A stretch of DNA of 64,000 nt from Candidatus Cybelea sp. (GTDB taxonomy: Bacteria > Vulcanimicrobiota > Vulcanimicrobiia > Vulcanimicrobiales > Vulcanimicrobiaceae). Below the pieces are notes generated by a model, which had not been told where the DNA came from, did no database searches, and saw only the letters and a list, made by a program, of their open reading frames with translations. The translations under genes were made by a program, and so were the position numbers. The stretch covers positions 1 to 64,000 of the forward strand of contig DASXFZ010000057.1 in the NCBI GenBank assembly GCA_036489315.1, in the 5' to 3' direction. Positions within the stretch are counted from its first letter, which is position 1, and every line of letters begins with the position of its first letter. This document shows positions 3 through 21,996 of the stretch, one piece after another.

Positions 3-599
3 GTGGTGATCTTTGACAAACTGTCAAGAACGGATGAAGCTCGCCTATTCATTGACATAAATACTAAGCAACGCCCGGTCCCCAATGAATTGCTGCTCGA
101 CATAAAAAAACTGGCTAGCTACGACACGGAACTGGAAGAGACTTTAGGCGAGCTTTTTAATAGGCTCGCGACGGATGAGAACAGCCCACTCCTGGGGCTC
201 ATGTCGCCATCCAAAAAGGCGACAGGTAAGCTGTCGCGAGTGACAGTGAATGGAGCCCTCAAGCCGGTGTTAGCTAAGCTAGACGATCCAGACATCGAGC
301 GAACGTATGACGTCATCAGCGAATACCTGCACGCCGTCACATCCATTCTTAAGTCAAAGAAACAGCTCAAGGCGATAACCTCTCCCACTGTGTTCCGAGC
401 GTTTCTAGCGTTGTTTCCCGAAGTGGCGACCCGAGTAAAGGATCGATATAACGGCGAATTCACAAAACGGAACTTTTCTCGTGAACTTCAGCCGTTATCC
501 GATAGACTTACTGCAGGCCAACTTTCCAAGCCCGGCGACAGCTATAGGGTCTTTTATTCAACGTTAAGCCGACACCTAGAGCGTAAGCTTTCGCTTTAG
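3..599 (+). CDS. DGQHR-domain (DndB-like) protein, 5'-truncated
   Basis: The reading frame is open from the left edge, so only the C-terminal 198 residues are visible and the true start lies outside. The first residues carry a block reading FIDINTKQRPVP, the phage/island-type DGQHR/DndB signature in which an Asn-Thr-Lys-Gln stretch follows the DGQHR core; the core itself would lie upstream. DGQHR proteins are found in DNA-modification and defence islands (DndB regulates phosphorothioation). The rest is helical and charged with no other domain I recognise. Base composition is clearly more AT-rich than the rest of the window (ATA, TTA and AAA codons are common), which fits horizontal acquisition. 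It ends 4 bp before the next gene, so the two are probably cotranscribed. Family call is fairly secure; the substrate is unknown. Confidence 0.68.
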   Translation: MVIFDKLSRTDEARLFIDINTKQRPVPNELLLDIKKLASYDTELEETLGELFNRLATDENSPLLGLMSPSKKATGKLSRVTVNGALKPVLAKLDDPDIERTYDVISEYLHAVTSILKSKKQLKAITSPTVFRAFLALFPEVATRVKDRYNGEFTKRNFSRELQPLSDRLTAGQLSKPGDSYRVFYSTLSRHLERKLSL

Positions 600-603
600 C
601 ACT

Positions 604-1547
604 ATGTCGACAGGATATTACGTTGCCGCAGTCTTGCCGGCCGCAATTATCCAAAAGCAGTCCTCGAGCGCAGACTCTTTGCGAAATTTTATCCTTAAAG
701 GAAACTATGCGATTTACGCTGATACTGACCCTTTGGAGTTGACGGCTTCCGCCCCTGATCAACTCTTGGACGCATGGTGTGGTGATATATCACGAATTGC
801 GAGCGCAGCATTCGAATCCGCGGCTAGCGATGTTTCCGTTAAAGACCTGCCGCGTTCACTAGGGTGGCTTTTGATCAAATCGTATTACGCAGCTTTTTTA
901 GCGCGCACGCCCTCCTAAGAATGAATGGTAGTTCCCTAGCTTACTTTGATAGCAGAGGCATCGCTGCTCTGGTCAGGGCGGCTCGAACCTATTCCGTGTC
1001 GATTTCGCCAACTTCTGGATTATCGCCAACAAGGATCGTCGGCTCCGGTAACACTCTTGAAATCACTTCAAGTAAGCTTTCCGGGCATGGACATGCGGCT
1101 GTTTGGGAGGCATTTGACGATTTTCTTGATGATGTTACTCGCAAGGTTGCAACGCTTCCCACGACAGCGGAGACGAAAGATGCACTCGACCAACTTTTAA
1201 AGTTAACATCGTACTTGCGTCGGTCCGGCGTTGCTTGGTTGTCCGCAACGAGAAATGAAATAAATTACAGGCAGTTGCTCGATGTATGGTTTCCATATGG
1301 AAGGTCAAGGCCGGACCACAGGAGGGTCTTGAGAATGGCAAGTCAATGGGCGAACGCTTTCAAGGTAGATAGACATCTCCCTAAAGCGGATCACGCAGGA
1401 CTCATTCTGCTTGATTTATCGATGTTAATCGTGCGTCTGTGCCGAGAAGTGGTGCTCGCGGCGGCGGAGCTTAATACAGCAGGGAGATCGTTTTTGAATA
1501 ACACAACGATAAAGATGTTGAGATTGGTTGGAGGTCATGGAGCGTAA
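604..1547 (+). CDS. HEPN-like helical protein, split by a -1 frameshift at 894-900
   Basis: Two overlapping frames make one protein: 604-897 ends in a tryptophan-rich helix followed by KSYYAAF, and the frame open from 864 continues as FSAHALLRMNG. Joined at 894-900 they give the continuous motif W-L-L-I-K-S-Y-Y-A-A-F-(F/L)-S-A-H-A-L-L, typical of HEPN-like helical proteins. The join falls on T TTT TTA, placed in the zero frame exactly as an X XXY YYZ slippery site, and slipping back one base enters the second frame at 900. The C-terminal half has RNEINY and an Arg-x4-His (RSRPDH), reminiscent of HEPN RNase motifs. The product would be about 314 residues. Without frameshifting, translation stops at 918 after 104 residues. 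Programmed frameshift, inactivating mutation or base-call error all remain possible. Composition matches the preceding DGQHR gene. Confidence 0.6.
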
Positions 1548-10466: not shown

Positions 10467-12511
10467 GAAGCGAGCGCGTTCGTCTCTTCTTGAGCGATGA
10501 CCTCGGCCGGTACGAGCGCCATCTCGTTGGGGAGCTCGCCGTAGGCGTAAACGGCGACGCGTATTCCGGAGCGCAGCAAGAAGTCGGCGAGCACCGGCCG
10601 CAGCGCCGAGGTGCAGACGACGGCGGCGCGCTCCCGCGGCGTGCGCATCGCGTACCGTTCGATCCGCGCGCGCACCGCAAGCGCGGTCGCCGGCTCCGCC
10701 CCTTCCGCGCCGTAGCGGCACCACGCCGCAATCAGCCGTTGCTCGAACTCCGGCTCGAAGATCGCCGGCTCGAGCGCCGTGACGCCCCGGCGGCGCAAGA
10801 GATCCGGAACGATGGCTCGCCGAGCGCACTCCGCCAGCTCGCGCGGATCGCGCGTTGCGGCTTCGAGCATCGCTTCGAAGACGGCGATCGGATCGCGCGG
10901 CCACGCGCCCTCGCGCAGCAGAAGCCCAAAGGTCCGGTGCACGGCGCCGAACGGCAGCGCTTCTCCGCCGATCTCCTTCACCACCGCCGGCACCGTCGAG
11001 CGGAGATGTTCGAGCAGCGTATGCAGCTCTTGACGCCCGACGAGCTCGGCGGCGTGGGTCCGGGCGATCTCTGCCAGATGGGAGCCGAGCACGGAGATCG
11101 GATCGAAAACCAGCGCGCCCGCATTGAGCGCGCTCTCCCGCACGTCGGGCGGAATCCAGGCGGCGGGCAGTGAGTAGACGGGTTCGCGTTCGATCTGCAC
11201 CGAGAAGCGCGTCAAGACCGCTTCGTCGGCGACCGCGAGCAGCCGCTCGAGTTCGAGGCGCCCGCTCCCCGCCAAGCGATCGCGAACCCGAATTCCGTAA
11301 GTGCGCGGATCGCGCCCAAGATCGTCGCGCAAACGTACGCCGGGAAGAACGACGCCGATGTCGGCTGCCAGCGCTCGGCGAACCTCGCCGATCCGGTCGA
11401 GCAGCGCGTCAGCTAGCGGCGGCGCCAAGAGTTGTGCGAGATCGGCGCCGATTTCGAGTGCGACGGCGTCGACGCCCACCAGGCCGAGCGCTAGCTCCGG
11501 GCGCCGCATCGCGTTACGCTTGAGGCGCTCGCGCGCCTCGACGGCCTCGCTCTCGCCGCGCCGGCGATTTCGCTGCGCGGCCGCCAGCATAAACGCCGTC
11601 GCACCCAAGAAGATAAAAAGTGGTCGCGGCAATGCCGGCACCAGCGCAAGCGCCAGCAGCAGGCCGCCGGCGCTGCGCAAGACGTCGGGCCGCGCAAAGA
11701 GCTGCGTCGCGAGATCGGCGCCGAGCGCACCCTCCGATGCGACGCGGGTGACCATCAGGCCCATCGCCGTCGAGATCAGAAAGGCCGGCAGCGTCGTCAC
11801 CAGCGCGTTTCCGATCGAGAGGAGGGCGAAGGTCGAGATCGAGTCGACGGGCGACAGCCCATGGTAGAGCACGCCGACGAGCACGCCGCCCGCCAAGTTG
11901 AGCGCGACGATCACGAGCGCCGCGATCGCGTCGCCCTTGACGAACTTTCCCGCACCGTCCATCGCGCCGTAGAAATCGGCCTCGCGTTGAACCGTTTCGC
12001 GTTTGCGCCGCGCGCCTTCGGCATCGAGGGAGCCGGCGTGAACGTCGGCGTCGATTGCCATCTGTTTGCCGGGCATCGCGTCGAGCGTGAAGCGGGCCGC
12101 GACTTCGGCAACCCGCTGCGAGCCGCTGGCGATGACGACGAACTGAATGGTCACGAGGATCGCAAAGACGATGATGCCGACGACGAGATTTCCGCGCACG
12201 ACGAACTCTCCGAACGCGGGAATGATCGCCCCGACCGCACCCGGCGTCGCCCCCGACGTCAAGATCAGCCGCGTCGCCGAAACGTCGAGCGAGAGCCGAA
12301 AGAGCGTGGCGATCAAGAGTGCCGGCGCGAACGCCGAGAACTCTAGCGGGTCGTCGACGGTCACCGAGAGCAAGAGCACGAGCGCAGAACCGAAGATGTT
12401 GATTCCCAGCAGCAGATCGAGCAGCCACGGCGGCAGCGGCACGATCAGGATCGCGACGATCGCCAATAGTAAAGCGGCGAACGCGTAGACCGCGCGCCGC
12501 GAAGAGCTCAT
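10457..12511 (-). CDS. flhA: Flagellar export gate protein FlhA
   Basis: 684 residues, full length for FlhA. The first 300 or so residues hold eight membrane helices and the FHIPEP-family block around ARFTLDAMPGKQMAIDAD (residues about 140-157). The rest is the cytoplasmic nonamer-ring domain that docks substrate-chaperone complexes. It is the energy-converting gate of the flagellar type III apparatus. ATG at 12511 overlaps the flhB stop by 4 bp (ATGA). Reading frame intact, unlike flhB. The cytoplasmic domain could equally serve a flagellum-derived secretion system; nothing in the gene itself separates the two. Confidence 0.95.
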   Translation of the reverse strand: MSSSRRAVYAFAALLLAIVAILIVPLPPWLLDLLLGINIFGSALVLLLSVTVDDPLEFSAFAPALLIATLFRLSLDVSATRLILTSGATPGAVGAIIPAFGEFVVRGNLVVGIIVFAILVTIQFVVIASGSQRVAEVAARFTLDAMPGKQMAIDADVHAGSLDAEGARRKRETVQREADFYGAMDGAGKFVKGDAIAALVIVALNLAGGVLVGVLYHGLSPVDSISTFALLSIGNALVTTLPAFLISTAMGLMVTRVASEGALGADLATQLFARPDVLRSAGGLLLALALVPALPRPLFIFLGATAFMLAAAQRNRRRGESEAVEARERLKRNAMRRPELALGLVGVDAVALEIGADLAQLLAPPLADALLDRIGEVRRALAADIGVVLPGVRLRDDLGRDPRTYGIRVRDRLAGSGRLELERLLAVADEAVLTRFSVQIEREPVYSLPAAWIPPDVRESALNAGALVFDPISVLGSHLAEIARTHAAELVGRQELHTLLEHLRSTVPAVVKEIGGEALPFGAVHRTFGLLLREGAWPRDPIAVFEAMLEAATRDPRELAECARRAIVPDLLRRRGVTALEPAIFEPEFEQRLIAAWCRYGAEGAEPATALAVRARIERYAMRTPRERAAVVCTSALRPVLADFLLRSGIRVAVYAYGELPNEMALVPAEVIAQEETNALASCT

Positions 12512-13522
12512 ACGGCCGGCTCGCTCGCGCGCGCGAGCGCAATGACGACTTCGGCGACCGCGAGATAGTGCTCGCGCGGAATCGGCTCGACCGAGCGCAC
12601 GTCGCGATAGAGGGCTCGCGCCAGCAGCGGATTGTCGACGACCGGGATGCTGTGCCGGACGGCAAGCGCGCGAACCTGCAGTGCGAGGTCGTCGATCGCG
12701 CGGACGAGCACCTTCGGCACCGTGACGAGCGGCGGTGCGTATGCGAGCGCTACGGCGACGTGGGTTGGATTGACGACGACGAACGCCGCCTCTTTTACCT
12801 TTGCGAGGCCGCCGCGCAAAAACGCGCGATGGAGCGAACGCCGCCGGCCGCGGGCGGTGGCGTCACCCTCTTCTTCCTTCTGTTCGCGTCTACGCTCTTC
12901 GAGGCTCATCCGCAGCCGGCGCAGCCACGCGTTGCGCGCGGCTGCGAACTCGACCAGCGAGAAGAGCAGGCCGATCCCCGCCGCAACGGCGACGACCTCG
13001 ATCGCGCAAGACCATGCCGCAGTCGCGAAACGGTCGAGCGAGGTTGAGGCGAGCAGCGCCGGTGCGCTCGCTGCAAACGCCGGGAACATCGCGCCCGCAG
13101 CACATGAAAACGCGAGGATCGCGCGCAGCGAATGCCCGAAGCGTCTCGCGGGAAAAGACGCGGCGTATTCCTTGAACTGGATTGAGGCGCTCGACTTTCA
13201 TCCCGACCGGCACGAACGCCAGGCCCCCGTTTTGCAGCAGCGTCGCGAACGTACCGGCGAGCGAAGCGCAGAGAATCGGCACGAGCGCAACGGCGGCGAC
13301 CGCCCCGGCGCTCGGGGGAGCCGGGCGCAGCGACGCGGCCTGGGCGAGCGCATCCGCCCCGAGGCTCGCGATGCTCGCCGCGATGCCGGCGACGCCGCAG
13401 GCCGCCGCCGCGAACGAGCAGTTCACCGCGAGTTCACTCGAACGTGCGACGTCACCCTCGCGCCGCGCCTTGGCGATTCGCCGCGGCGTCGCTTCGAACG
13501 GCTTCTCTTCGCTATCGCTCAT
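12508..13522 (-). CDS. flhB: Flagellar export switch protein FlhB (frameshifted near 13121-13128)
   Basis: The start MSDSEEKPFEATPRRIAKA at 13522 is the classic FlhB N-terminus, and that frame runs to RETLRAFA. The family sequence then continues in the next frame (RAILAFSCAAGAMFPAF...), which reaches the stop at 12508 and contains the self-cleavage motif NPTH in VVNPTHVAVAL. The jump lies in GCTGCGCGCGATC, where one extra base or a lost GC unit moves the frame. Read through, the product is about 337 residues with four membrane helices and the FlhB cytoplasmic switch domain that changes substrate specificity. The start overlaps the fliR stop (ATGA). Either a real lesion or a base-call error in the GC repeat. 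Confidence 0.85.
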
Positions 13523-14235
13523 CGTGCCGGCCCGGGAAACAAAACGATCGGGAGCGGAGCATGCTGCGCTTCGAGCGGCACGACGACGGTGCTTGCAAGG
13601 AGCGCGGCGGCGAAGGCGAGCGGAAACGCGAGCGTAAAGCTGCCGAAACGCGGAACGACGCGCGAAAGAGCGCCCAGCGCAATCTGCACGACGAATGCCG
13701 CAGCGACCGCCGGCGCGGCGACCTGCAGCGCGACGACGACGAACGTCTGTGCGAACCACGCGGTGAAGCTCGTCCACTGCGCGGCGTCGATCGCGCTTGC
13801 CGGCGGAATGCGGGTGAAGCTCTGCGCGAATGCGAGCAGCATCGGACGGTACGCGCCGGTCAGAAAGAAGGCGCCGGTAAACGCGAGCGACCAGACGCGC
13901 CCGTAGCCCGAGGGCGCCACCAGCGCGACGCTCGGAGCGATCGCCTTGACGCCGATATAATCGTCGACGACGCGCCCTCCCGCGTACGCGCCGTCGTAGA
14001 TCAGCGACGTGGTCATGCCGATCGCACTGCCCAGCAGAAACTCGACGAGCAGCGCGGCGACGAATCCGTAGATGTCCTCGCTGCGGGTACGCACCGCCAG
14101 CGGCCGTGCGACGAGCATTGCCAGCGAAAGCGCGAGCCCGCCCCGCAGCGCGACTGGGACGCTTGGATGCGAGAATCCCGGCGCGCGAAAGACGAAGCCC
14201 GCGCAGCGGGCTAATACGAGCAGGCCGCTTACCAT
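13519..14235 (-). CDS. fliR: Flagellar export gate protein FliR
   Basis: 238 residues with six hydrophobic stretches and FliR features: ARCAGFVFRAPGF near the N-terminus, LLGSAIGMTTSLIYDGAYAGGRVVD in the middle, and a C-terminal pair of helices. FliP, FliQ and FliR form the helical export gate within the basal body. ATG at 14235 overlaps the fliQ stop by 7 bp, and its own stop overlaps flhB by 4 bp, so translation is coupled. The length is slightly under the usual 250-260 residues. The frame is intact. Confidence 0.92.
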   Translation of the reverse strand: MVSGLLVLARCAGFVFRAPGFSHPSVPVALRGGLALSLAMLVARPLAVRTRSEDIYGFVAALLVEFLLGSAIGMTTSLIYDGAYAGGRVVDDYIGVKAIAPSVALVAPSGYGRVWSLAFTGAFFLTGAYRPMLLAFAQSFTRIPPASAIDAAQWTSFTAWFAQTFVVVALQVAAPAVAAAFVVQIALGALSRVVPRFGSFTLAFPLAFAAALLASTVVVPLEAQHAPLPIVLFPGPAR

Positions 14236-14498
14236 CCCGAGCCCAGCGCCGGTATCGCCGCGATCGCACGATCGAAGAGCGAGGCCAGTAAATGCATCGC
14301 GGTCGCTCCGAACGCGGCGACCAGGAGGCCGACGGTAACGATCTTCGGGAGAAGCGTCAGCGTCTGTTCCTGCACTTGCGTCGCGGCCTGGACGACCGCA
14401 ACCGCCGTCCCGACGAGCGCGGCGCCGGCGAGCATCGGCAAAGCGATCAGCGCCGTCGTGACGAGCGCATCGTGCAAGAGTCCGTCGAGCGCCTCCAC
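14229..14498 (-). CDS. fliQ: Flagellar export gate protein FliQ
   Basis: 89 residues, the standard length, with two membrane helices joined by a short loop containing QAATQVQEQTLTLLPK, the conserved FliQ signature. Four copies assemble with FliP and FliR in the export gate. ATG at 14498 lies 34 bp downstream of metF, which separates it from fliP; in most genomes fliP and fliQ are adjacent. The intervening spacer holds a short direct repeat GGCGTTACG around 14519-14537, of unknown meaning. Confidence 0.93.
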   Translation of the reverse strand: MEALDGLLHDALVTTALIALPMLAGAALVGTAVAVVQAATQVQEQTLTLLPKIVTVGLLVAAFGATAMHLLASLFDRAIAAIPALGSGW

Positions 14499-14532
14499 GC
14501 CCTAACGGTAAGGGAACGGCGTTACGAGGGCG

Positions 14533-15444
14533 TTACGCGGTTGTTATAGCGGTCGCGTTGCGCGGGGCCGGCCGCCACGCACTCGCGGCAAGCAGTGCGG
14601 AGACGATCGCGCGCGTGGCGGGCGAACGATTGAGCGTGTAAAAGTGCAGGCCGGGCACTCCGGACTGCAGCAGCTCGGAGGCTTGCATCGATGCGTAGGC
14701 CACACCCAGATCCTCAACGGCCTTGACGTCGCCCTTGCGCATCTCCATCTCGACGCGCAGCTTCGGTGGAATGCTCGCGCCGCACATCGCGACGAAGCGC
14801 TCGATCTGGGCGAAGTTTGTGATCGGCATCAGGCCCGGCAGCATCGGCACCGAGATGCCGGCGTCGCGCGCCCGGCGCTCGAACGCGAAGAAGAGCGCGT
14901 TGTCGAAAAAGAGCTGCGACACGAGAAAGTCGGCACCGGCGTCCGCTTTGCGCTTGAGCGCTTCAAGGTCGGCGTCGACCGTCGGCGCCTCCGGGTGCTT
15001 CTCCGGGTAGCATGCCGCGCCGATGCAAAAGTCGTAATTACGCCGCAGCATCGCAATCAGCTCGTCGGCCTGGGTGAAGCCTCCGGCGGTTCCTTCAAAG
15101 GCGGTGCCTGCGGGCGCGTCACCGCGCAGCGCCAGCACGTTCTCGATGCGTGCGCGCGCTAAGTCGTCGAAGAGCGCACGCAGGTCGGCGCGCGAAGCGC
15201 CTACGCACGTAACGTGCGCGACGACCGTCATCCCGATCTCTTGCTGAATCTGCTTTGCCAGTGCGACGGTTCGTGCGCGCGTCGAGCCCCCCGCGCCATA
15301 GGTGATCGAGACGAAGGCCGGCCGTAAGGGCGCCAGCGCCTCGATCGTCGTGAAGAGCTGCTGCGAGCCGGCATCGTCTCGGGGCGGAAAGAACTCGAAG
15401 GAGAAAAACGGCCGCTGGGTCGCGAGCGCCTCGCTGATGCGCAT
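14533..15444 (-). CDS. metF: 5,10-methylenetetrahydrofolate reductase
   Basis: 303 residues from the ATG at 15444. RPFFSFEFFPPRDD near residues 11-24 carries the catalytic Glu of MetF, followed by the TIM-barrel strands SITYGAGGSTR and LALRGDAP and the FAD-contacting segments DFLVSQLFFD and PGLMPITN. It reduces methylene-THF to methyl-THF, supplying methyl groups for methionine synthesis. The gene sits in the middle of the flagellar operon between fliP (14 bp upstream) and fliQ (34 bp downstream), on the same strand. The open frame extends upstream over fliP, but homology begins only at this ATG. Function is secure; the location is odd. Confidence 0.95.
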   Translation of the reverse strand: MRISEALATQRPFFSFEFFPPRDDAGSQQLFTTIEALAPLRPAFVSITYGAGGSTRARTVALAKQIQQEIGMTVVAHVTCVGASRADLRALFDDLARARIENVLALRGDAPAGTAFEGTAGGFTQADELIAMLRRNYDFCIGAACYPEKHPEAPTVDADLEALKRKADAGADFLVSQLFFDNALFFAFERRARDAGISVPMLPGLMPITNFAQIERFVAMCGASIPPKLRVEMEMRKGDVKAVEDLGVAYASMQASELLQSGVPGLHFYTLNRSPATRAIVSALLAASAWRPAPRNATAITTA

Positions 15445-15458
15445 ATGCGGCTCGTCTC

Positions 15459-16118
15459 TTAACGAAAGCTGCCCGCGACGCCTCCGCAGAGCAGCGCCCA
15501 GCCGTCGACCATGACGAAGAGCAGGAGCTTCACCGGCAGCGAAACAACCGGTGGGCTCAACATCATCATGCCCAGGCCCATCAGCATCGCGGCGACCGCC
15601 AAGTCGATCGCAACAAAGGGCAGATAGAGGGCGAAACCGATGGCGAAGGCGCTGCGAAGCTCGCCGACGACGAAAGCCGGAATCAAGACGGTCATCGCGA
15701 CCGCGCGGCGGGGCGGCGGCGCCTCTCGCGCAATCCGTTCGAAGAGCGCGATATCGGCGGCGCGCGTCTGCCGCAGCATGAACGAACGCAGCGGTCCGGT
15801 CGCGCGCGCGAGCGCCTGCGACGGCGTCAAGCGCCCGTGCGTGTAGGGCTCGACGGCCTCGCGGCCGATCCGCTGTGCGGTCGGCGTCATCACGACCATC
15901 GTCAAGACCAGCGCAAGGCCCGTAAGCACCGCGTTGGGGGGCAGCGCGGACGCACCAATGGCGGAACGCACCAGCGAAAGGACGACGACGATCCGCACGA
16001 ACGACGTGCACATCACGAGCAGCAGCGGCACGAGCGAGAGGAGCGTCAGGCCTACCAGAAGGTCGAGGGGTTCGCTTCCGTGACGCCCCGCGGCCGCGAG
16101 CAGCGGATCGAGATTCAC
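15459..16118 (-). CDS. fliP: Flagellar export gate protein FliP
   Basis: 219 residues from a GTG at 16118 that overlaps the fliN stop as GTGA. FliP hallmarks: LLVGLTLLSLVPLLLVMCTS near the N-terminus, SFVRIVVVLSLVRSAIG, GRLTPSQAL, and the tail MLMGLGMMMLSPPVVSLPVKLLLFV. FliP forms the core of the export gate with FliQ and FliR. It lacks the cleavable signal peptide of many FliP proteins and is about 25 residues shorter than usual. Longer start options exist upstream but lie inside fliN and look unrelated. Confidence 0.93.
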   Translation of the reverse strand: MNLDPLLAAAGRHGSEPLDLLVGLTLLSLVPLLLVMCTSFVRIVVVLSLVRSAIGASALPPNAVLTGLALVLTMVVMTPTAQRIGREAVEPYTHGRLTPSQALARATGPLRSFMLRQTRAADIALFERIAREAPPPRRAVAMTVLIPAFVVGELRSAFAIGFALYLPFVAIDLAVAAMLMGLGMMMLSPPVVSLPVKLLLFVMVDGWALLCGGVAGSFR

Positions 16119-16393
16119 GGCGATCGCCCGTTGCGCAGCAGTTCGGTTATGCGCAACCCGAAACTCTCGTCGACGGCGACGATTTCGCCGCGGGCGATCG
16201 CGCGATCGTTGACGAGCAGCTCGACCGGCGCGTTGGCCGCGCGATCGAGCTCGACGATCGATCCGTTTCCAAGCTTGAGGATCTCTGCCACCGACATTTT
16301 GCATCCGCCCAGCTCGACGGTCAGCTGGAGCGGAACGTGCAGCAGCAGGCCGAGATCGTCGCCTTCGAGCGGACCATTACCATCGACGACCAT
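16115..16393 (-). CDS. fliN: Flagellar switch protein FliN (SpoA domain)
   Basis: 92 residues, essentially one SpoA domain: LLHVPLQLTVELGGCKMSVA, then LKLGNGSIVELDRAANAPVE and VNDRAIARGEIVAVDESFGLRIT, the diagnostic FliN/SctQ C-terminal block. FliN dimers with FliM build the lower C-ring, which docks the FliH-FliI export ATPase. The protein is short but complete for a single-domain FliN. ATG at 16393 lies 6 bp after the FliM-like stop and its stop overlaps fliP. The same domain occurs in non-flagellar type III systems. Confidence 0.9.
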   Translation of the reverse strand: MVVDGNGPLEGDDLGLLLHVPLQLTVELGGCKMSVAEILKLGNGSIVELDRAANAPVELLVNDRAIARGEIVAVDESFGLRITELLRNGRSP

Positions 16394-16399
16394 CGCTTC

Positions 16400-17150
16400 T
16401 TACGAGTCGCCGGCTGCGTCTATCCGCAGCGCGCGGCGGCCGCCGGCGAGCCCGCACGTTCCGCGCGCGAGCGCGCGCCCGAACGCTACGAGCGTGCAGC
16501 GGTGCAGTTCGTCGGGAGACCGGCAGCGTCGCGCCCGCTGCGAGCGCCGCTATCGCGCGGCTCGAAACCGGACCGAGAGCGAACCGCACGCGCGTCGCGA
16601 TCGGGATCTCTGCCAGATGCGCGGCTTCGATTCGCGTTTGCGGTTGCGAGGACGGATCTCGCGTCAGCGCGATTCCGATGCGAGCGACGACCGGTTCGAG
16701 CAGTGAGAGTTCGAAGTACGTCGCGAGCCGCTCGATCCGGTCGACGCGCTCGGCGCCGAGGCTCTCCCGCGTTCCGCAGACCGAGCCGAGGTGCGCCGCA
16801 AGCATTCCGATCGTGCGATCCAAAACGTCCCGCTCGAACGGTGAGAGACGGCGGTTCCCGCGCGACGGAGGCTCGCCGAAGAGCGCCGCCGCGAGCGTGG
16901 CCGCATCGTCGGGGCGAAGGACGACGATTGCCTCGGCGACGCTGCCGCGGATGCGATAGAGAAGCGCATCTCGCAGGAGGGTCGGCCACGCGCAGCGGCG
17001 CGGAATCGAAGGTTCGACGACGTGCAGTTCAACCGGCGCGGCAAAGAGCGCGGCCAGCGACTCGCGGACGCCGTTGGCGACGACGCAGGCTGCGCTCACC
17101 GGAAGCGAGGAGCGCCTCGTAACGACCCATTCGCGCACGCGCCGGTTCAT
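16400..17150 (-). CDS. FliM-like C-ring protein (frameshifted near 16513-16516)
   Basis: From the ATG at 17150 (overlapping the FlgG-like stop as ATGA), about 210 residues resemble a FliM/SctQ middle domain: LVRPDDAATLAAALFGEP-type sequence, LSPFERDVLDRT, and a first half of a SpoA domain ending GATLPVS. The SpoA domain continues in another frame as CTLVAFGRALARG and RRALRIDAAGDS, stopping at 16400. The shift falls in TCCCGAC (one base too many or two too few). Read through, it is about 250 residues, short for FliM (about 330), and it lacks the N-terminal CheY-binding EIDxLL motif. It would link the ring to FliN. The frame error may be genuine decay or a sequencing error in a C run. Confidence 0.7.
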
Positions 17151-17861
17151 TTCAACAGATCCATCGCCGTTTTGCCGAGGTGGCCTTTGGCGGTCTCCGC
17201 TGCTTGCAACGCGTCGAACGTAATGTACGCCTCTTTCAGCCGCGCGAGGCTCTCGTCCAAGTCGACCCGGCTGCGCATGCGATGGAGCGGTTCGAGCGCG
17301 GCAAAACCGTCGCGTCCCGCCACCGAGCTGCGCGTCGACGCCCGGCGGCGCAATATGCAGGCCGTCGCTTTCGGAAAGGCGCGTACCGGCCGGAAAACGC
17401 GCGAGCGCGAGGCGGCCGGCAACGATGCGCCGCGACTCCCGGATTCCGCTGCGCGGGTCGATGCTCGTTCGATCGTAGGCGAGGCTGCCGTCGGCCTCGA
17501 CCCGCGCGTTCGCGGCGCGCCCAAGCGCTTCATCGATCGGATCGACCCGCAGCTCCACGAGCCGGCTCGAGCCGTCGAGGCCGCAGATCGCGCGCCCGTC
17601 GCGATCTTCGAGCCGCCCGTTGTGAAGCGCGAACGATCCGTCGCTGGTGAAGCCGGTCTCGCCGCGCGCGTCGCGAGCAACGAAGTAGAGGCCGCCGGCG
17701 GCGCAGACCGAGAGGGGATCGAGCGTGAAATCGGAGATCGCCGCCGGCGTGGCGACGTCGTCGTGCTGCGGCACGCTGCCGGGAACAAAGGCGCGACGCA
17801 CGTCCGCGGCGCGTTCGGTGATTCGGTCGAGCGCCGCGCTCAACGCTGGGTTTAGGAACAT
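17147..17861 (-). CDS. FlgG/FlgF-like rod or hook-basal-body protein (frameshifted near 17328-17334)
   Basis: Starting at ATG 17861, the N-terminal part contains the rod-protein core AAGGLYFVARDARGETGFTS-DGSFALHNGRL, matching the F-F-V-V-x-D-x-x-G-x-x-x-Y-T-R-D-G-x-F block of FlgF/FlgG. The family's C-terminal helix (MRSRVDLDESLARLKEAY and on to the TGA at 17147) is in a different frame; the switch is within GACGCGCAGCTC, again at a GC repeat. Read through, about 238 residues. It is the only distal-rod-type gene in the operon and there is no separate FlgF, FlgE or FlgK. It overlaps the FliK-like gene by 10 bp and the FliM-like gene by 4 bp. Confidence 0.72.
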
Positions 17862-18415
17862 ATCGATCCTCCGTTGGTGAGGGGCGTGGTCTCGAATCCG
17901 CGTGCCGCCAAAGCCAGACGCGCCTGCGCGAGCGCCCGCGCGACGAGCTGGCGCATCTCGGGCCGGCAGAGCGCGACGAGGGTAACCGTGCCGGCGTTAC
18001 TTTGCAAAATCACATGGACGCGAGCGCCGCCGCGTCCGAGCGAGAAGGTCGCGCGCCGTACCGCTGCGTTCGGCCGGAAGAACGTGCGCTCGATGCGGCG
18101 GCTCAAAGGTAATATCGCCCGAAACGTCGCCGCTCGCGCGACGTTGGGGGCGAGCTGCGGCCGCGCGCGGCGAGCTGCGGAGCCGCTGGTTTGGCGATAC
18201 TCGGCGCAAGGTTCGAATAACCGGTGCTCGGCGGGCTGCTGCGGCCGGCAGGCGATCGTTGCAGCGGCCTGCGAGCGATGCGCGGTCTGCGCCGCCGGCC
18301 GCGTCTGCTTGCGATCGAGATGAAGCGCCGAATACCAGGCTTGCGAGAGCGCTCGCCGGTCGATCGCCGCGAGCGGTGCCGCAAGAATGCTGACCTCGAG
18401 CCGTTCTGTCGTCAT
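17852..18415 (-). CDS. FliK-like hook/rod-length control protein (tentative)
   Basis: 187 residues. The middle is Ala/Gln/Arg-rich with no recognisable fold. The last 60 residues (SLGRGGARVHVILQSNAG, then a helix around MRQLVARALAQARLALAARG) resemble the C-terminal substrate-switching domain of FliK, which ends with a beta-hairpin followed by a long helix. FliK measures hook length and triggers the FlhB switch. Support comes mainly from operon position: the start at 18415 overlaps the transglycosylase stop (ATGA), and a rod gene follows. No hook gene is visible, so it may control rod length or have another role. Confidence 0.45.
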   Translation of the reverse strand: MTTERLEVSILAAPLAAIDRRALSQAWYSALHLDRKQTRPAAQTAHRSQAAATIACRPQQPAEHRLFEPCAEYRQTSGSAARRARPQLAPNVARAATFRAILPLSRRIERTFFRPNAAVRRATFSLGRGGARVHVILQSNAGTVTLVALCRPEMRQLVARALAQARLALAARGFETTPLTNGGSICS

Positions 18416-19011
18416 GGCAACATGCTGTCAGGCGCAGGTGAACTTTCGGTCGTCGCCGGGTTGCCGAGTTGAGAACGCCGCTGGTACGACGAGAGAACAC
18501 GCTGCACGTACTCGCGCGTCTGCGCGTACGGCGGCACGCCGCCGAAACGCTCGACCGCATTGGGGCCGGCATTGTACGCCGCCAGCGCAAGGGTCACGCT
18601 GCCGAAACGATCGAGCAGGCTGCGCAGATATCGCGTCCCGCCGTCGACGTTCTGCCGCGCGTCGTACGGATTGCGTACGCCCAATGCCGCGGCCGTCCCG
18701 GGCATCAGCTGCATCAAACCCTGCGCGCCGGCGCTCGAGACGGCGCGCTCGTCGAACCCGGATTCGTTCTCGATGACGGCGTCGACCAGCGCCGGATCGA
18801 GGTTGCGGCGAGCCGCGGCGGCCGCGACGATCCCTGCGATCTCACCTCGCGGCGTCCGGGCCGCAGCGGGAACGTCTACCGGCACTTGCGCGCGCTGCGC
18901 GTCGTACACTCTTGCCGAAAGGATCTCGTCGAATTCGCAAGCGCCGGCCGGCGCGGTCGTTATCTCGGCGATGCGACGGCGGACCGCAGCGAGTTCGTCA
19001 GCGATCTGCAC
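18412..19011 (-). CDS. Lytic murein transglycosylase (SLT domain)
   Basis: 199 residues from a GTG at 19011, chosen because GGAGG lies 6 bp upstream. Residues about 60-185 form a Slt-type domain: DAVIENESGFD holds the catalytic Glu (about residue 83), followed by SSAGAQGLMQLMPGTA and ALAAYNAGPNAVERFGG. Such enzymes cut peptidoglycan so that a rod or secretion conduit can cross the wall, comparable to FlgJ or SltF. No Sec signal peptide is seen, so export through the type III apparatus is likely (inference). Overlaps fliI by 14 bp and the FliK-like gene by 4 bp. Confidence 0.88.
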   Translation of the reverse strand: MQIADELAAVRRRIAEITTAPAGACEFDEILSARVYDAQRAQVPVDVPAAARTPRGEIAGIVAAAAARRNLDPALVDAVIENESGFDERAVSSAGAQGLMQLMPGTAAALGVRNPYDARQNVDGGTRYLRSLLDRFGSVTLALAAYNAGPNAVERFGGVPPYAQTREYVQRVLSSYQRRSQLGNPATTESSPAPDSMLP

Positions 19012-20044
19012 GTTCGTCCTCCACAAGTTCGGCGAGCGCGGCCAGACGCGAGAGCGTCTCCGCCGGCTCGCAGCGCCGCGCGGCCTGGCGAAGGAAGTCT
19101 TCCAAGCGATCTTCGGCCGCAACCGCAGCGCGCACCGGCGGCTCCTGGGACTCAAGGCCCAAACTACGCGCGTCCGTGACGCGCTCGAGCGCGGCAATCG
19201 CGCGGCGCACGGCTCTTGCCGCACGAAGCTGCGCGCCGTCCGCGACCATCTCCATCGTGCGGCTGGTGCTGGCGAGCACGTCGACGGCGGGGAAACGTCC
19301 GGCTCGAGCGAACGCGGTCGAAAGCGCAATGTGGCCGTCGAGCAGCGAGCGGGCGGCTTCGCTGACCGGATCGCGATCGTCGCCGTCGTTGAGCACCGTT
19401 GCGATCAAAGTGACCGAACCTTCCGCGAGGACGCCGGCTACCTCGACGAGCCGCGCCAGCTCGGCGAACACGCTGGGCGGATAGCCGCCGCGTCTGGTGC
19501 TCTCTCCCTTTGCAATGGCAAGTTCGCGCAGCGCCGCGGCAACGCGAGCCAGACTATCGAGCACGAGCAAAACCGAGAGTCCGCGCTCGCGAAGTGCCCG
19601 CGCCTGCGCGACCGCAACGACTCCCGCGTCGAGACGCTCGAGCGCGGGACGATCGCTGGTCGCACAGACGACCGTCGTACGCTCGTTGAGGCGCGCGATC
19701 CACTGCTGCGCTTCGCGACCCCGCTCGCCGGCCAGTGCGACGACGACCGCGTCGGCGGCGCATCCGTCGACGAACGCCTCGAGCAGTGTCGTTTTTCCAG
19801 CGCCGGGCGCGCCGAATATCCCGATCCTCGCGCCGCGCCCGATCGTCAGCAGCCCGTCGACGACCCGTACGCCCGTCCACAGCGGCGTGACGACCGGCGC
19901 GCGCTGGGCGGGGCGCGGCGGCCGAAGCGCGATCGATATCGCGCGCCCGCACAACGGCGGACCATCGTCGAGCGGGTGGCCGGCGGCATCGATCGCGCGG
20001 CCGAGAGCACACGTCCCCAACTCCAGACGTCGCGGCGCCATCAT
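18998..20044 (-). CDS. fliI: Flagellar export ATPase FliI, lacking the N-terminal barrel domain
   Basis: 348 residues with the F1/FliI ATPase core: Walker A GAPGAGKTTL near 78-87, catalytic GERGRE near 106-111, Walker B VLLVLDSLAR near 158-166, and the export-ATPase SEAARSLLDGHIALS motif. FliI energises and unfolds export substrates at the base of the apparatus. Usual FliI proteins have about 440 residues; this one starts only about 60 residues before Walker A, and the ATG at 20044 overlaps the fliH stop as ATGA, so the N-terminal beta-barrel domain needed for hexamer contacts is truly missing. The frame is intact. The core is clearly of the type III ATPase family. Confidence 0.9.
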   Translation of the reverse strand: MMAPRRLELGTCALGRAIDAAGHPLDDGPPLCGRAISIALRPPRPAQRAPVVTPLWTGVRVVDGLLTIGRGARIGIFGAPGAGKTTLLEAFVDGCAADAVVVALAGERGREAQQWIARLNERTTVVCATSDRPALERLDAGVVAVAQARALRERGLSVLLVLDSLARVAAALRELAIAKGESTRRGGYPPSVFAELARLVEVAGVLAEGSVTLIATVLNDGDDRDPVSEAARSLLDGHIALSTAFARAGRFPAVDVLASTSRTMEMVADGAQLRAARAVRRAIAALERVTDARSLGLESQEPPVRAAVAAEDRLEDFLRQAARRCEPAETLSRLAALAELVEDERADR

Positions 20045-20532
20045 TCGTGCGCAGCCGCGATCGCCGCTTCGAGCCGCGCCGATAACCGTAAGTCAATCGT
20101 GCCGGATCGCAGCTCGACGACGATATCGCCGGGGTGCAGCGAGGTGTCGTTAATTTTTTCGACCTGCAGCTCCGCAAGCGCTTCGCGATCGCGCGGGTGG
20201 ACGCGCACCGCAACGATCCGTTCGTCGACGAGCCGTTCGCGCGTCTTCGCGACGATCGAGGCGACGTCCGCAGCTCGCAGCGCGAGTTCGCGCGCCAGCA
20301 CGTTCTCCGCAATCTCCTGCAGGAGGCGCGCCACGCCGGCATCGAGTGCATCGGCGAGCGCCGCACGAAAACGGCGAATCGCACCAAACGCCATGGCGTA
20401 CTCATCGGCCGCGTGCGTGCAGTGCACGGTTGCGCGATCGAGTTCGGGCCGGATCTCGACTTCCGGGAGCGCCGGCTCGTCAAGCGGTTGCAGCGGACGC
20501 AAGAGCGCCGTCAACGGAACGAACTCACGCAT
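20041..20532 (-). CDS. fliH: FliH-like export ATPase regulator
   Basis: 163 residues beginning MREFVPLTALLRPL. The C-terminal two thirds match the FliH/SctL pattern: a helical stretch LLQEIAENVLARELALRA, then VRVHPRDREALAEL and HPGDIVVELRSGTIDLRLSA, ending in a terminal helix. FliH ties FliI to the C-ring and holds ATP hydrolysis in check. The N-terminal coiled region is short. Its ATG at 20532 overlaps the stop of the upstream FliF/FliG frame (ATGCGTGA) and its stop overlaps fliI. Assignment rests on the C-terminal pattern and on position between fliF/G and fliI. Confidence 0.82.
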   Translation of the reverse strand: MREFVPLTALLRPLQPLDEPALPEVEIRPELDRATVHCTHAADEYAMAFGAIRRFRAALADALDAGVARLLQEIAENVLARELALRAADVASIVAKTRERLVDERIVAVRVHPRDREALAELQVEKINDTSLHPGDIVVELRSGTIDLRLSARLEAAIAAAHE

Positions 20533-21996
20533 GGCGGCGAAGGAGCTCATGCGCTTCGTCGAGCAGCGGCGCGTGGCTGCGCTGCATTCGCCGTACGATT
20601 GCCTCACGTTCGTGCGGCGGATAGAGCTCGAGTACGGCGGTAGCCGTCGCGGCCGGAAGGGCGCTGATGATCGCGGCCGCAGCGTGCGGCGGTTCTTGTT
20701 CGAGCAGCTGCGAACGCGTGCCGGCGCGAAGCCTGCGGCCGCTTTCGACGTGCGCTCGAGCGCCGCGCGCTCCAGCAGCGACCGTACGAGCTCACCGCAC
20801 GGTGGAATCGCGAACCGAACGCAGACGACCAGACCGATGGCAACGACGAGTGCCGGCGCGAGGGGAATGAGCGCGCCGTACAACAGCGCCCAAGCATCCC
20901 GGCGCATTTCGGGTGGCTGGTGGAAGCTGACGGCTTCGACCGCCAACAGGTCGCCGCGGCGCGCGTCGAAACCGACCGCCGCCTCGGCAAGCTCGCGAAT
21001 CTTCGCGAGGTCCGTCGATCGACCGCGGTCGACGAATACCGCGGTCGAAAGCCTCCGCAACCCTCCGGGCGCCGCCTGCGAGGTGATTTCCCGGGTGTCG
21101 CTTCCACGATCGGCACCCTCCTCGGCGCGCCGGTAGCGTTTACCGCCGCCGTCAAAGCTCTCGCTGCGCCTGGTACCGGCAATCGCTTGCAGTCCGACGG
21201 GCAGGCGGCGAACGTCGCGCTCCGAGACCTGCTCGTTCGCGTACTCCGCGCGCACGCGAACGATCGTCGTGCCGTCGCCGAATGCAGCGTCGAGCGCCGT
21301 CTGCAGCGACGCCTGAAGCTGGGCCGCGTCACCGTTGCGCTCGTTGCTCTCTCCGAGCGCGACGCCGCGATCGTCGAGGATCGTCACGCGCTTGGCCGAG
21401 AGCTCCGCAACGCTCGCGGCGACGAAGGAACGAATGCCGTCAATCGTCTCGTGCGAGAGCTGCGAGCCCGAACGCAGCCGCAGCCGGACGCTCGCGCTTG
21501 CGTCGTGCGCGGTTTCGTCGGCGAACTCCGCCGCCTTCGCCGGTGCGACGATCACCCGCGCGTCGTCGACGCCGTCGATGCCGCGCAATCCGGCTTCGAT
21601 ATCGCCCGCCAGGCCCGCACGAGTCTGCGCGTCGACGACCGCTTGCGGCGTCAGGACGCCGATCGCACCCAGCGCTTCGCCGGTGCTCGAGAGGTGCGGG
21701 TGCGGGACCCCGGCGAGCGAGAGACGCAGCAGCAGATCGTTACGCCTCCGGGCGTCGACGATGACGTTGTCGGCGGTCGCCGTGAACGCGACGCTCCAGG
21801 CGGCCAGCCGTTCTTCGACCTCACCGAGCTGTTCGGGATGTAGCGGCGCCGCAAAGAGCGCGACGCGCGGCGCGTGCGCCAGAATTGCGAGCGTGAGTGA
21901 AAGCGTTAAGAGTGCCAGCGCGCCGCCGCCGGCACAGGCACGCGTCACGCGAGAGAGGGCGTTCCAGCGCCTGCCCATCAGCGTCAGCGCGTGCAT
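20525..21996 (-). CDS. fliF: FliF MS-ring protein with FliG-like C-terminal domain (frameshifted near 20711)
   Basis: The first 430 residues are FliF: a membrane helix near 23-45, the YscJ/FliF ring-building domains (DIEAGLRGIDGVDDARVIVA, LSHETIDGIRSFVAASV), and a second helix (LIPLAPALVVAIGLVVCVRF) near 385-405. After GFAPARV the family-like sequence moves to another frame: QLLEQEPPHAAAAIISALPA and on to AVLELYPPHEREAIVRRM, ending at TGA 20525-20527. This tail resembles the FliG middle domain that usually follows FliF as a separate protein. The torque-generating FliG C-terminal domain is absent. The shift (one base missing) lies in CGTTCGCAG. Fusion into one polypeptide is my reading; an independent short gene is possible. 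Start ATG 21996 (GTG 21999 also possible). Confidence 0.75.

Follow-up and report, generated by a model that had tools for sequence, protein, structure and literature searches.

A TTTTTTA heptamer at a broken frame in the HEPN-like partner gene of a DGQHR-domain protein: probable base loss in a T run

The window analysed here comprises bases 1–64,000 of a 65.5-kb contig from Candidatus Cybelea sp., base 1 being the contig end. Its first gene (3–599, forward strand) encodes the C-terminal part, approximately residues 147–345, of a DGQHR-domain (DndB/ParB-like) protein. Over this C-terminal part only, the product matches the NCBIfam model TIGR03187 (E 8.7e-13; 48.6 bits against a cut-off of 58.85), and it is 40% identical to residues 147–345 of a DGQHR protein from the window's own bacterial family. 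The contig starts downstream of the 5′ end of the gene and of its DGQHR motif, and no second DGQHR copy was found in the genome. Downstream on the same strand are two open reading frames, 604–918 (104 aa) and 864–1547 (227 aa, GTG start), representing the 5′ and 3′ parts of a frameshifted gene for a HEPN-like partner protein. The 3′ part, which extends over 843–1547 when the whole open stretch of the -1 frame is counted, carries the conserved motif WLSxxRNExNY.

According to the initial annotation, the frames 604–918 and 864–1547 are joined at a heptamer, TTTTTTA (894–900), arranged as X XXY YYZ. This is confirmed: the 604 frame reads GCT TTT TTA GCG CGC ACG CCC TCC TAA at the site, which places the heptamer, with its run of six T, in the phase T TTT TTA, and it ends at the TAA stop in positions 916–918. 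With the -1 frame open from 843, a shift could take place anywhere within 843–915, and TTTTTTA is the sole X XXY YYZ heptamer in 0-frame phase inside this zone. Across the 64-kb window the same heptamer occurs twice, against 1.17 occurrences expected from shuffled sequences, and is thus neither rarer nor commoner than by chance.

A family profile was built from 16 homologues, leaving out the window sequence itself. It matches the 604–918 product at positions 17–104 of 322 (E 2.9e-21) and the -1-frame product at positions 101–319 of 322 (E 2.8e-44). Since one profile covers both, nearly end to end, the two frames encode the halves of a single protein, as had been proposed; the frame break falls at about profile positions 101–104. 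Beyond it the gene shows no further stop or break in its 944 bp, and most of the conserved residues are retained. The short 104-residue product lacks the invariant RNxxNY segment.

Homologues were collected with the read-through protein serving solely as a search probe. A first scan of genome contigs with the joined protein alone returned no confirmed relative; relatives then came from plasmids, from the window's own phylum and finally from a profile scan. The resulting 21 homologues comprise 19 loci from the profile scan of one-per-species genomes and two plasmids (Acinetobacter and Tritonibacter), and they range over Pseudomonadota, Verrucomicrobia, Acidobacteria, Bacteroidetes, Firmicutes and the window's own bacterial family. 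The latter is represented by another genome (G103; locus L014 is the same protein). Identity to the homologues found did not exceed about 30%, and there were no relatives in phage records or IMG/VR. When two other groups were sampled more widely, 1 of 385 and 3 of 396 genomes were positive, seed genomes included.

A single open frame of 282–350 codons spans the site in 20 of the 21 homologues. The remaining one, L024, was considered as a second break at the same place and set aside because it starts at its contig end and no family sequence is present, in any frame, in the bases upstream. The heptamer position corresponds in the family to a pair of aromatic residues (F or Y) whose codons vary (TTT TTT, TTC TTT, TTC TTC, TTT TAT, TAT TAT, TAC TAC and others); several homologues carry the aromatic pair without any T run, and the homologue from the window's bacterial family, 30% identical overall, has TAC TAC. 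TTT TTT accounts for six of the nine FF pairs, and TTT for 247 of the 353 Phe codons (70%) across the homologous genes, so that there is no clear sign of selection for the T run. A -1 slip in the intact homologues would in most cases lead to a stop within 3–39 codons; the overlap geometry is therefore not common to them.

Such a heptamer is what programmed -1 frameshifting at U UUU UUA would use, and the initial annotation had envisaged a short product of 104 aa and a long one of 314 aa arising from one gene. The correct phasing at the junction and the match of the -1 product to the whole family speak for this, and an X_XXZ_ZZN heptamer in phase at an overlap of reading frames is indeed shared with bacterial genes using this mechanism, for example insertion-sequence transposases (PMC4066793). 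Unlike these, the locus has neither a conserved heptamer or break in its homologues nor stimulators. No Shine-Dalgarno-like stimulators of the kind listed in PMC4066793 were found 6–17 nt upstream of the heptamer, folding of the downstream and surrounding RNA into pseudoknot-free structures gave no stability beyond that of shuffles (z +0.2 to +1.3), and there was no Rfam match. In E. coli the last base of the efficient U-run heptamers is U or C, and the motifs selected as shift-prone do not include U_UUU_UUA (PMC4066793). Together with the continuous homologues, in which no conserved slippery heptamer exists, and with the lack of the RNxxNY segment in the short product, these results render programmed frameshifting highly improbable.

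Each half has its own start codon and is long enough for a protein, as two separate functional genes would be, the 5′ and 3′ parts each with its own product. No homologue is split at the site, and the break lies inside a long helix (residues 90–111) predicted by the family models, so that we consider this the least credible of all readings.

The frame was very probably broken by the loss of one base in the T run, most likely in a recently inactivated copy of the gene, a reading in which we include the case of an assembly error. This was the competing explanation offered in the initial annotation, and it proves the better one. One T would have been lost from a run encoding two adjacent aromatic residues, and TTTTTTA would be what this loss left behind rather than a signal. 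The broken gene could then yield just the 104-residue fragment, and as this fragment lacks the invariant RNxxNY segment, recent inactivation is the most likely outcome. Against this account, the remainder of the gene is undamaged, a state that a very recent mutation would explain, as would an assembly error or a means of restoring the frame.

Restriction and defence genes are often phase-variable, and a T run that gains or loses a base within the population might switch the gene on and off. In its favour, runs of seven T are found at the same place in three intact homologues (L017, L019 and L026), but a tract of six or seven T is short for switching and the family does not conserve it; phase variation is very unlikely. 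Only slightly less remote is the broader proposal of a T-run switch in a defence-type gene, with six T (off) in this assembly and seven T (on) in other cells, or of slippage by the ribosome or the RNA polymerase that would give a little full-length protein from a gene otherwise silent, which we likewise rate as very unlikely.

An error in sequencing or assembly, by which the contig would have dropped one T from a continuous gene, is compatible with the undamaged remainder of the gene and with the nature of the site, a homopolymer 0.9 kb from the contig end. Against it, the window contains 20 runs of at least six identical bases, the adjoining DGQHR gene contains a seven-A run without loss of frame, and some thirty conserved genes other than flagellar ones (SecD, SecF and LysS among them) are intact in a comparison with same-genus genomes. 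It follows that the assembly does not lose homopolymer bases in general, which favours a real mutation at 894–899. An assembly error is thus possible but unlikely; it ranks as the next most likely account after an inactivated copy.

Four further frameshifts had been reported from the flagellar locus, and they held up against same-genus genomes. The genes concerned, named by us from sequence and position rather than by family search, are presumably fliF (split between frames at about 20.70 kb), a basal-body rod-like gene (about 17.32 kb), fliM (about 16.4–16.5 kb) and flhB (about 13.1 kb). The first two are continuous in the same-genus genome G010, fliM in G003 and flhB in both. These frameshifts were called by frame-splitting of tblastn matches to same-genus proteins; a raw listing of nucleotide indels relative to the relatives was too noisy and was dropped. 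Their concentration in flagellar genes suggests a recent loss of motility in the lineage rather than random sequencing error, and four flagellar breaks beside some thirty intact genes point to gene decay more than to poor sequence. Elsewhere within 12500–21900, no damage is evident in flhA, fliP, the fliQ/fliR-like genes or the housekeeping genes around them.

In 18 of the 21 homologous loci the gene directly upstream of the HEPN-like gene, on the same strand, encodes a DGQHR protein, with the motif present. The exceptions are L003, L015 and L024, the last being cut off at its contig end; by our reading of the sequence, the genes upstream in L003 are presumably of transposition type. Full-length homologues of the DGQHR protein match DpdB (E down to 1.3e-13) and DndB, which relates them to the DGQHR/DndB/DpdB proteins of TIGR03187. 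In contrast to dnd and dpd systems, the constant neighbour of the DGQHR gene here is the protein of about 320 aa, and the part of the modules' neighbours that was searched contained no recognised dnd or dpd cluster. In three loci, those of Acinetobacter (L002), L018 and L027, the pair follows a DNA methylase and a restriction enzyme. The restriction enzyme is annotated as NotI-family in Acinetobacter and matches a type II enzyme in L018; in L027 we take the gene to be a restriction enzyme from its position and sequence. Preceding the pair in G103 are, as we read the sequences, a large gene that is presumably methylase-like and one that is presumably helicase-like. In many other loci methylase or restriction genes are not evident near the pair. 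The initial annotation had placed the gene in a defence-type island, and a setting of this type is supported. The three loci with methylase and restriction enzyme are four-gene clusters, found in Acinetobacter, a betaproteobacterium and Caulobacter. Psychrosphaera haliotis (L013) has a second, divergent DGQHR gene (10851–11936, reverse strand) a few kilobases from the pair, adjoining other large genes of unassigned role.

The label 'HEPN-like', used in the initial annotation, was examined by sequence and by structure. None of the Pfam, NCBIfam or PADLOC models describes the protein of about 320 aa. A match of one member to PADLOC HEC-06 (E 0.0027) was rejected, as it covers under a third of that protein. 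Pfam HEPN models gave no match at cut-off in 19 members, with one HepT-like match at 0.092, and hhalign comparison with three members of MAE_28990/RiboL-PSP was negative. A PDB sequence search returned chance-level matches only, and nothing significant was found in a viral structure library.

Two AlphaFold models of the family (mean pLDDT 86 and 91) were compared with structures in the PDB. Among the lower-ranked matches were Csm6 and RnlA, which are HEPN proteins. The best match of one model was the sacsin HEPN domain (Z 6.5; rmsd 4.0; 128 aligned residues), and that of the other the N-terminus of Roquin (Z 7.1; rmsd 3.9; 121 aligned residues), both below Z 8; the Roquin N-terminus includes an HEPN domain (PMC4614863). 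For a helical bundle such scores count as moderate, and by Foldseek alone the resemblance was not significant.

The motif WLSxxRNxxNY is kept across the family, with RN invariant. Most members have a His seven residues after the Arg (Rx6H), others having Q, L, S or F, and the window protein has Gln at this +7 position. HEPN families include ones with a six-residue spacer and ones that have lost the motif, and some are in operon with ParB-like genes (PMC3710099). HEPN-like is therefore a fair working label, moderately supported by the two structure models but not by any HEPN profile match, and membership in the superfamily is not established.

The nearest known parallel is provided by the HEPN families encoded beside ParB-like genes, MAE_28990 and RiboL-PSP-HEPN (PMC3710099), with which the present loci share the two-gene pairing of a HEPN-type with a ParB/DndB-superfamily protein and, in some cases, nearby restriction-modification genes. 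They differ in three respects. The family of about 320 aa matches neither their Pfam models by sequence nor, in hhalign, the three members compared; the partner is DGQHR instead of DGxQR; and the motif is RNxxNY, with the His at +7 in most members only. Genes of PF18737/PF18735 near DGxQR proteins (ParB/DUF262-like) do occur in other genomes of the window's phylum (L049, L050, L052 and L053). By analogy with HEPN ribonucleases that pair with ParB-like DNA-processing proteins, the intact protein probably acts with the DGQHR protein; an intact family member would then be a small defence-type protein.

This removes one suspected case of HIV-like programmed frameshifting from among the defence genes of bacteria, and the locus illustrates that a slippery-looking heptamer can arise from a single base loss in a pair of aromatic codons. 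The DGQHR and HEPN-like pair is more interesting than the heptamer: it constitutes a conserved, unnamed two-gene module present in several phyla, whose second protein, lying outside the Pfam, NCBIfam and PADLOC copies used, is a candidate for anti-phage activity.

In the window, the module occupies a segment (1–1717) that differs from its surroundings. The GC content is about 50% up to approximately position 1600 and 60–70% alongside, and comparison within the genus places a junction near 1,717, where the segment stands in place of the N-terminal 183 residues encoded by a chromosomal gene. From this contrast in GC and from the replaced residues we conclude that the module most likely reached the genome by horizontal transfer. 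The interrupted gene encodes 415–421 aa in same-genus genomes; its last 232 residues persist as a remnant (1720–2415, from about 1708, forward strand), and the lost N-terminal part was not found elsewhere in the assembly. Its relatives contain a YRDGDNNLD motif, and from the sequence we presume it to be peptidase-like. A little further downstream, a phosphoesterase-family gene (PF04185; 2442–3794) sits between genes that are adjacent in G003 and G010, and looks like a lineage-specific insertion.
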